A stretch of 64,000 nucleotides of DNA from Candidatus Bipolaricaulis anaerobius. Lineage in GTDB: Bacteria; Bipolaricaulota; Bipolaricaulia; Bipolaricaulales; Bipolaricaulaceae. The notes under the pieces were generated by a model. The model saw only the letters and a list, made by a program, of their open reading frames with translations. It was not told the DNA's origin and did no database searches. Shown one piece after another: positions 9,393-54,766 of the stretch (its first letter is position 1; the number at the start of each line of letters is the position of its first letter). A program made the position numbers and the translations under genes. The DNA lies in the NCBI RefSeq assembly GCF_900465355.1, contig NZ_LS483254.1:992001-1056000 (forward strand), given 5' to 3'.

Positions 9393-11021
<1,629 letters not shown>

Positions 11022-53080: not shown

Positions 53081-53160
53081 GCTTCGGCAGCCTGGCGGCC
53101 TCAAGGAGGTCCATGGCTTTGCGCCCCCGGATCGCTCCAGGTTTACCTTTTCGGCAGACG
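53081..53160 (-). promoter_or_regulatory. c-di-GMP-I (GEMM-I) riboswitch A, in front of the giant gene
   Basis: Minus strand reads AAAAGGTAAACC, then CCGGGGGCGCAAAGCC, a variable hairpin, and AGGCTGCCGAA, the order and conserved blocks of GEMM-I. The segment 53105-53117 (GCCATGGACCTCC) is complementary to GGAGG-GAA-CCATGGC (53054-53068), which contains the Shine-Dalgarno and start codon: 7 + 5 base pairs with a small bulge. When the aptamer folds around ligand, that segment is occupied and the start would be free, so ligand should switch translation on. The aptamer begins about 28 nt after the preceding RHH gene and lacks a strong own promoter. Confidence 0.85.
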
Positions 53161-53187: not shown

Positions 53188-53415
53188 CTAACTTCGGTTG
53201 AACCGGCCCTGGACAACCAGGGCCCGCTTCACGGTCTCGTCGCGGACCAAACCCTTCTCAACGAGGATCTCCCCTAGACGTTTCCCACGCTCGAAGTGCT
53301 CCTCGAGGATGGACATGATCACTGCAGACCGAGACTTGCGCTCCCGTTCGGCCAGCTCGTCCACCAGTTCCAGGAGGTACTGGTCCTCTTCGTTGTAGTA
53401 CAACGTTACCTGCAC
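53188..53415 (-). CDS. Ribbon-helix-helix protein with one MshEN-type c-di-GMP-binding motif
   Basis: 75 residues from a GTG at 53415, 8 nt after AAGGAGG. Residues 1-45 fit a ribbon-helix-helix DNA-binding fold: a short strand (MQVTLYY), a first helix (EEDQYLLELVDELAERER) and a second helix after KSRSA (VIMSILEEHFE). The C-terminal RLGEILVEKGLV, with ETVKRALVVQ after it, matches the 24-residue MshEN pattern RLGxxLVxxGLVxxxxLxxxLxxQ residue for residue; that motif binds c-di-GMP in MshE-type ATPases, usually as two tandem copies. As RHH proteins dimerise, two chains could supply the pair. Its own mRNA starts with a c-di-GMP riboswitch. DNA target unknown. Confidence 0.78.
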   Translation of the reverse strand: MQVTLYYNEEDQYLLELVDELAERERKSRSAVIMSILEEHFERGKRLGEILVEKGLVRDETVKRALVVQGRFNRS

Positions 53416-53449
53416 GTCGCCGCCCTCCTTTTGTGCTGCCCCGCCCAAT

Positions 53450-53487
53450 AAAAAAGGGCTCCAGGTGGTTTGCCCTCCTGGCAGCCC
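53450..53487 (-). terminator. Intrinsic terminator of riboswitch B
   Basis: On the minus strand GGGCT-G-CCAGG pairs with CCTGG-AGCCC over an 11-nt loop, followed directly by TTTTTT (53450-53455). The 5' strand (GGGCTGCCAGG) is also the conserved 3' end of the aptamer, so terminator and ligand-bound aptamer exclude each other: an ON switch for the RHH gene. Confidence 0.87.
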
Positions 53488-53553
53488 GACTACCCGTCCT
53501 GGGTTCGTAGCTTTGCGCCCCCACGTTCCCGTGGGTTTGCCCTTTTCAGGCTC
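53476..53553 (-). promoter_or_regulatory. c-di-GMP-I (GEMM-I) riboswitch B, in front of the RHH gene
   Basis: Minus strand: CCTGAAAAGGGCAAACC, a GNRA-like capped hairpin (CCACGGGAACGTGG), GGGCGCAAAGC, a second arm, and GGGCTGCCAGG. CCTG (53547-53550) can pair with CAGG (53477-53480) as the closing stem. It lies between a strong promoter and the terminator that shares its 3' strand. Confidence 0.9.
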
Positions 53554-53570: not shown

Positions 53571-53599
53571 ACTGTAAGCCGGCCGGCGTTCCTTGTCAA
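53571..53599 (-). promoter_or_regulatory. Promoter of the RHH gene and riboswitch B
   Basis: TTGACA (53594-53599, perfect -35) and TACAGT (53571-53576) with a 17-bp spacer containing the palindrome GCCGGCCGGC. Transcription should start near 53564, about 11 nt before the aptamer. Confidence 0.87.
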
Positions 53600-53618
53600 G
53601 CGGACATTCGTCCGAGAC

Positions 53619-54689
53619 CTACCGGCCCGCGGCCGACGCGGTCGCCACCGCCGCACCCGCATCCACGAGCCCAGCGCCGAACCGCGGATCGCACCCCTCG
53701 GCAAGAGGGGTGGAGCTCTCAAGGAGGATATCCACCGCCTCGGACGCCGTGAGCGAAGGATCGGCGGAGAGGATGAGAGCAATGGTTCCGGCGACGTGGG
53801 GCGCCGCGAACGAAGTCCCCGAGTTCCGGGCGGCGCGACCTCCGGGGAGGAGGGAGGCCACTTCGTGCCCCGGTGCGGCCACCGCTACCTCCGGTCCCCA
53901 CGAGCTGAACGGAGCCAGGCCGTCCGTCGCGTCGGTGGCCGATACCGCGAGCACGGTCGGGTATTTGCCCGGATACAGGACTTCGGGGTTCGCCTCGTTC
54001 CCAGCAATCCCCACCACGACCACACCCTGGGCCGCGGCATAGGAGAGAGCCCGTTCGACGACCGCGGGGGGAATGCCCCTGGCGTACAGGCTGAGGTTGA
54101 TGATCCGAGCGCCGTTATCCACCGCATACCGAATGGCCTCCGCCAACCGATCCCAGTCCCTCGTCAAGAAGAGCCCGCGCGAGTCGAGGAACCGCACGTC
54201 CATGATCCGCACGGTAGGGGCCACGCCCGCCGCTCCCTCCACCCCCGCTCGGGCGGCGATGATCCCAGCGACACAGGTTCCATGCCAGTAAAGCGGCGTG
54301 CGCCGGCGATCTGCCGGTACCCCATCGCGAAAATCCCACCCGAAGACATCATCCACATACCCGTTCCCATCGTCATCGATGCCGTTCGTGGGGATCTCGT
54401 GAGGGTTCGTCCACCGCACCGCGGCGAGCTCGGGGACCGTCCAGTCAATGCCGCTATCGATCACGGCGACGACGATCTCCGGGCTCCCCATTGTGACCTG
54501 CCACGCTGCGGGAACACGGATTCGCTCCAGGCCCCAGGGCAGGTTCGCCGTCACCGGGCTCGGGGAGCCCGCCGTCCCTGCCCCGCCAGCGATGTCCGGG
54601 CCATCAAGGGTGGGTGTGGCCAGGAAGAGGAAGAACAACCCCAGGCCGGTCCCTACCCACCGCCACCGCACGTGTCGTCTGCGTTCCAT
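53619..54689 (-). CDS. Secreted subtilisin-like serine protease (family S8)
   Basis: 356 residues. A signal sequence (basic MERRRHVRWRW then hydrophobic residues 12-25) is followed, without an obvious prodomain, by the S8 fold. The triad is Asp78 (AVIDSGIDW), His136 (YWHGTCVAG) and Ser293 (NSGTSFAAPHVAG), with oxyanion Asn231 (GIAGNEANP). A DDDGNGYVDD loop (about 105-114) should bind calcium. It ends without a sorting signal. The start codon lies at the very end of a c-di-GMP-I aptamer and no separate Shine-Dalgarno is seen. It is upstream of the RHH and giant genes on the same strand. Confidence 0.93.
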   Translation of the reverse strand: MERRRHVRWRWVGTGLGLFFLFLATPTLDGPDIAGGAGTAGSPSPVTANLPWGLERIRVPAAWQVTMGSPEIVVAVIDSGIDWTVPELAAVRWTNPHEIPTNGIDDDGNGYVDDVFGWDFRDGVPADRRRTPLYWHGTCVAGIIAARAGVEGAAGVAPTVRIMDVRFLDSRGLFLTRDWDRLAEAIRYAVDNGARIINLSLYARGIPPAVVERALSYAAAQGVVVVGIAGNEANPEVLYPGKYPTVLAVSATDATDGLAPFSSWGPEVAVAAPGHEVASLLPGGRAARNSGTSFAAPHVAGTIALILSADPSLTASEAVDILLESSTPLAEGCDPRFGAGLVDAGAAVATASAAGR

Positions 54690-54766
54690 TCGGCAACCCG
54701 GCTGTCCTCATGGGACCCGTGGCTTTGCGTCCCCCCCTCGCGAGGGGTTTGCCCTTGTCGTGGCCC
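54690..54766 (-). promoter_or_regulatory. c-di-GMP-I (GEMM-I) riboswitch C, in front of the protease gene
   Basis: The best match of the three: CGACAAGGGCAAACC, hairpin CCTCGCGAGG, GGGGACGCAAAGCCACGGGT, a variable arm, and ACAGCCGGGTTGCCGA. The protease ATG (54687-54689) follows that last A directly. No terminator is seen, so control is probably translational. Confidence 0.92.

Follow-up and report, generated by a model that had tools for sequence, protein, structure and literature searches.

The window analysed here, a 64,000-nt stretch of the Candidatus Bipolaricaulis anaerobius genome, contains on its minus strand a 75-residue open reading frame whose product joins a ribbon-helix-helix (RHH) domain to a single copy of the MshEN motif, known from cyclic di-GMP (c-di-GMP) receptors. 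The gene, for which the initial annotation gave no strand, lies between a conserved upstream neighbour encoding a subtilase and a downstream gene for a very large predicted surface protein. Each of the three stands behind its own c-di-GMP riboswitch, an order also kept in a second genome (G009).

Features of the locus, and two related elements elsewhere in the genome:
47365-53058, minus strand: predicted surface protein, 1897 aa (DUF7507 repeats, LTD and Big domains)
53082-53156, minus strand: second c-di-GMP-I-GGC riboswitch, downstream of the RHH gene and ahead of the surface-protein gene (RF03167, 59.8 bits)
53188-53415, minus strand: RHH protein with one MshEN motif, 75 aa, GTG start at 53415, stop codon included
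53209-53280, minus strand: single hybrid MshEN motif, residues 46-69 (NF053729, PDB matches, motif consensus)
53260-53277, minus strand: deletion junction, codons 47-52, RLGEILV of motif 1 joined to EKGLV... of motif 2, with 31 codons missing relative to orthologues
53287-53415, minus strand: RHH domain, residues 1-43 (Pfam RHH_1 at residues 13-34)
53423-53429, minus strand: Shine-Dalgarno element AGGAGGG preceding the GTG, read from the sequence
53450-53487, minus strand: intrinsic terminator sharing the 3' strand of the aptamer (-21.9 kcal/mol, z -3.54, U6 tail)
53476-53550, minus strand: c-di-GMP-I-GGC riboswitch aptamer of the RHH gene (RF03167, 64.5 bits)
53571-53599, minus strand: sigma-70-like promoter TTGACA-17-TACAGT, upstream of the riboswitch
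53602-53613, minus strand: palindrome GGACGAATGTCC, candidate operator, adjoining the -35 box
53619-54689, minus strand: subtilase (Peptidase_S8)
54688-54762, minus strand: c-di-GMP-I-GGC riboswitch of the subtilase gene (RF03167, 75.6 bits)
Outside the window: two further c-di-GMP-I-GGC riboswitches, at about 9401-9476 and 10110-10188 of L129 (G000:C1:1078900 and 1079609)

Domain content of the 75-residue protein

Orthologues share the GTG start at 53415, and this together with the Shine-Dalgarno element led us to drop an upstream TTG at 53448 that would extend the protein to 86 aa. Both domain assignments, made by eye in the initial annotation, are borne out by profile and structure-based comparison, although the second only as a partial match. 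Pfam RHH_1 scores 21.6 bits, above its cut-off of 20.5, and the ribbon residues Q2, T4 and Y6 are invariant among relatives. The NCBIfam model NF053729 (c-di-GMP_motif) matches residues 35–69 with E = 2.8e-7, its score of 30.2 bits falling below the cut-off of 38 because only model positions 19–53 (35 of 53) are present. A sequence search of the PDB aligned the C-terminal half with the c-di-GMP-binding proteins PilF and MshE (E = 5e-10 for full-length PilF), and within residues 46–69, which span the 24 residues of the published motif (PMC5013675), the sequence RLGEILVEKGLVRDETVKRALVVQ keeps every conserved position scored (R1, L2, G3, L6, V7, G10, L11, V12, L17, L21 and Q24) except L17, replaced by valine. 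An MshEN domain is built of two such motifs in tandem, and the 75-aa protein holds one. Its single-chain AlphaFold model is poor, with C-terminal pLDDT of about 42–64; in Foldseek the RHH part matches CdbA and CopG, and the single motif matches PilF weakly (probability 0.2–0.4). A role as an RHH antitoxin was considered and dropped, the neighbours being the subtilase and surface-protein genes with no toxin seen.

The two-motif family and the 31-codon deletion

A homologue search, run on 60 relatives and then on 100 genomes of the phylum, returned a match in 75 of the 100 Bipolaricaulota genomes. The domain pair that the initial annotation proposed to look for elsewhere is found across the phylum, with the difference that the relatives carry a whole MshEN domain. 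An RHH domain followed by two tandem motifs is found in all 64 intact full-length homologues, the motif starts lying 30–33 residues apart (mostly 31), and none of the 64 departs from G3, L21 or Q24 in either motif. At the level of the phylum, motif 2 mostly does not keep its Arg, and the turn glycine of motif 1 is usually R or K within the genus of the 75-aa protein. All 29 family-level orthologues match NF053729. The closest orthologue (L008, 106 aa) scores 56.2 bits against the cut-off of 38, and 23.5 bits with RHH_1; its AF2 model is of moderate quality (pLDDT 74.7, pTM 0.53), the C-terminus superposing on c-di-GMP-bound PilF GSPII-B and MshE at 1.1 Å with 33–44% identity (Foldseek probability 1.00, yet E-values of about 0.1) and the N-terminus matching CdbA, CopG and Arc. 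One motif per chain, as first described, therefore holds for the 75-aa copy and fails as a design of the family, an option abandoned since every intact relative has two; nor does the family need RHH dimerisation to assemble an MshEN domain, given the tandem motifs of its intact members.

One protein scan of genome contigs placed the fusion only on named contigs of Bipolaricaulota/Acetothermia and on one labelled 'Thermotoga sp.' (L039), a label that looks wrong, the contig matching a genome of the source genus (G002). Plasmids and viral contigs yielded matches to the MshEN half only, among them MshEN-like two-motif segments on two IMG/VR contigs classed as viral (L132, L133; 35–39% identity to the family C-terminus). 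Family f5 shows a local expansion: three class-level genomes (loci L107, L114 and L112 in G041, G050 and G053) each have several RHH-MshEN genes, with c-di-GMP riboswitches 149–223 nt upstream.

Outside a single gap of exactly 31 codons (93 bp), the 75-aa protein is 97% identical to L008. The deletion, seen in this genome only, is in frame and fuses motif 1 to motif 2. Its flanks are near-identical 14-nt direct repeats (GGGGA[A/G]ATCCT[C/T]GT), and the corresponding bounds in L008 are GGGGAAATCCTCGT in motif 1 and GGGGAGATCCTTGT in motif 2, so that slippage or recombination between the motifs would be a simple cause. The two genes differ by 13 synonymous and two amino-acid changes, and since both of the latter polarise to the L008 lineage, the window lineage changed no residue beyond the deletion. 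The resulting hybrid motif takes RLG from motif 1 and its glycine from motif 2, and is nearer to the consensus than either motif of L008, which is suggestive of retained function without proving it. A pseudogene finds no support in a loss of exactly 31 codons, in frame and with no further damage, unlike the relative L083, which is clearly frameshifted. By this sequence comparison, the 75-aa protein belongs, in shortened form, to a family of Bipolaricaulota RHH proteins with two-motif MshEN domains.

Riboswitches, terminator and candidate operator

The initial annotation had also placed the gene under a c-di-GMP riboswitch, and Rfam agrees: the class-I aptamer 60 nt upstream exceeds the RF03167 gathering score of 59 bits, as do the other two aptamers of the locus. 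An intrinsic terminator overlaps the aptamer, GGGCUGCCAGG at the aptamer 3' end pairing with CCUGGAGCCC ahead of the U6 run. Since the 3' strand of the aptamer also serves as one side of the terminator stem, the expression platform is predicted to be mutually exclusive with the aptamer; aptamer formation should block the terminator, and c-di-GMP is accordingly predicted to turn transcription on. The same hairpin appears in 14 of the 18 leaders folded, that of the 75-aa gene counted; among the remainder, L032 and L033 have a shifted hairpin and the leaders of L014 and L015 were incomplete in that set. Covariation in the terminator is uninformative, as the aptamer fixes its 5' strand. In the full-leader fold the Shine-Dalgarno element pairs with GCCCUUUU, so that translational control is also possible. 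At the subtilase gene, the predicted ATG (54689) falls inside the final bases of its aptamer (54688–54762), suggesting direct translational gating there.

No promoter-like site was found in the gap that holds the riboswitch at 53082–53156, which probably lies between two genes of one transcript. If so, the surface protein stands behind two c-di-GMP gates in series. Elsewhere in the source genome there are just the two further riboswitches of this class, each before a short gene whose product begins much like a signal peptide, and the riboswitch set as a whole appears to comprise secreted or surface proteins and the RHH regulator. This genome (1.32 Mb, one contig) has the 75-aa protein as its only match to the MshEN profile, and encodes three GGDEF proteins with intact GG[DE]EF, two HD-GYP proteins and no EAL proteins.

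Across the phylum, 68 family genes are listed, four of them truncated or frameshifted. At 39 of these a same-strand c-di-GMP riboswitch lies no more than 300 nt upstream, in 33 cases at a distance of 43–71 nt, and a further riboswitch follows the stop codon at 32 genes (within 60 nt at 30). The other 29 have no riboswitch within 300 nt upstream, including one of the same genus (G011), and at 12 family-level loci without a riboswitch nothing emerged even at E-values up to 0.5. At three loci (L085, L091 and L103 in G070, G071 and G067) the nearest upstream riboswitch is about 630–660 nt away, and another gene may intervene.

Upstream of the aptamer, the TTGAC and TA..GT elements of the promoter are conserved in the genus. 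Directly adjoining the -35 box is a palindrome of the pattern GGAC-N4-GTCC (GGAC-GAAT-GTCC at the RHH gene). In the extended form GGAC-N4-GTCC-N-CTTGAC, it occurs once per genome in nine of 12 genus members, each time at the RHH-MshEN gene, and a tenth (G001) has it with one mismatch. Neither gene nor site is present in G006; in G011 the gene is there, and riboswitch and palindrome are both missing. The palindrome is absent from the subtilase promoter and was not seen at the class-level loci of f2. Counted in the window, GGAC-N4-GTCC is not significant (two found against five expected), and the evidence consists of its position and its once-per-genome occurrence. An operator serving a wider regulon was set aside: two other near-matches in the genome fall within coding sequence, and the element looks like a single site. 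It is a good candidate for an autoregulatory operator, to which the RHH protein would presumably bind.

Interpretation and relation to known systems

The best explanation of these observations, to which we assign a probability of about 0.68, is a family of c-di-GMP-sensing RHH autoregulators controlling a riboswitch-gated surface-protein operon, of which the 75-aa copy has lost one motif. In the intact family, a rise in c-di-GMP would allow the aptamer to form and prevent the overlapping terminator, whereupon the operon would be transcribed, RHH-MshEN first and then the giant surface protein behind the second riboswitch. A dimer of RHH-MshEN would bind the single palindrome beside its own -35 box, as activator or repressor, and c-di-GMP bound in the MshEN domain would tune operator binding, closing a feedback loop in which one signal is sensed both by RNA and by protein. 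A double-sensor circuit of this kind had been put forward for the 75-aa gene; it gains support in the intact family, with its upstream riboswitches at over half of the genes, and less so for the short copy, which may no longer respond to the ligand.

For the source species, a serious contender that falls a little short of even odds holds that the half-MshEN is a non-functional remnant, leaving a plain RHH autoregulator with the riboswitch alone sensing c-di-GMP. MshEN needs both motifs, each guanine being held by residues of both (PMC5013675), the motif of the 75-aa protein falls under the family cut-off in a poorly modelled chain, and motif 1 was already degenerate at its turn glycine in the genus; yet the motif that is left is undamaged and close to consensus, no amino-acid change accompanies the deletion, and a dimer would supply two motifs. 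A site whose guanines are held by both motifs could in principle be reassembled from two single-motif chains, as the initial annotation suggested, with the RHH dimer (or a pair of dimers) joining their motifs into a symmetric four-helix bundle that would bind c-di-GMP. The two motifs superimpose at 0.8 Å and bind c-di-GMP pseudo-symmetrically in pockets drawn from both (PMC5013675), and the hybrid motif, nearer to consensus than either parent, has not visibly decayed. However, such an arrangement would exist in one genome only, RHH geometry may hold the C-terminal tails apart, and the deletion is perhaps too recent to show decay, so that we consider it rather unlikely.

That the missing 93 bp reflect an assembly or polishing error in an organism that really has two motifs is very improbable. 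The deletion does end within the near-identical repeats, and relatives all keep the segment, but imperfect repeats of 14 nt seldom collapse, the genome is a single contig and the junction is exactly in frame. Improbable, too, is a family of nucleoid-associated or non-specific DNA-binding c-di-GMP receptors in place of local autoregulators. CdbA, itself a c-di-GMP-modulated nucleoid protein (PMC7156744), is the nearest structure to the RHH part; against this, one conserved palindrome per genome at the gene's own promoter suggests local control, linkage to c-di-GMP riboswitches and to the surface-protein gene is tight, and the N-terminal ribbon has no separate CdbA-like ligand role, the MshEN domain being present.

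If the autoregulator reading is right, the family comprises very small ligand-controlled transcription factors (75–117 aa), predicted to be encoded by mRNAs that often lie under the control of a riboswitch recognising that ligand, and two small components plus a single predicted operator would allow a direct test of the feedback between RNA and protein sensors. The one-motif copy offers a natural test of whether two half-MshENs can function together in a homodimer; were the symmetric bundle real, it would be a 75-residue c-di-GMP-responsive transcription factor made from a c-di-GMP-activated mRNA. For this uncultured phylum, the locus also indicates a specific output of c-di-GMP signalling, namely surface proteins predicted to be secreted; one closed genome of the phylum has been reported without recognisable pili, flagella or adhesins (PMC6092417).

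Both halves have precedents, MshEN domains on one side and CdbA, an RHH protein that binds c-di-GMP (PMC7156744), on the other, but the literature searched yielded no protein that joins RHH and MshEN. CdbA and CdbB of Myxococcus xanthus resemble the present family as small RHH proteins tied to c-di-GMP. CdbA binds the nucleotide through its DNA-binding regions (PMC7156744) and has no separate ligand domain, whereas here sensing would reside in a separate C-terminal MshEN domain or motif. The MshEN/GSPII domains of MshE, PilF (GSPII-B), NfrB and Bd2402, gathered in NF053729, use the same 24-residue motif, in tandem as in the relatives of the 75-aa protein; the family differs in joining them to RHH, in a spacing between motif starts that is mostly 31 residues, compared with 29 in MshE (PMC5013675), and, in the short copy, in having one motif. 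Three aptamers of the locus pass gathering for the class-I riboswitch variant c-di-GMP-I-GGC (RF03167, related to RF01051), the departure from known examples being that one of the controlled genes encodes a predicted c-di-GMP-binding transcription factor. Regulators of the CopG/Arc/NikR type share the RHH DNA-binding domain, and NikR also carries a C-terminal ligand domain; in the present family that place would be taken by MshEN.
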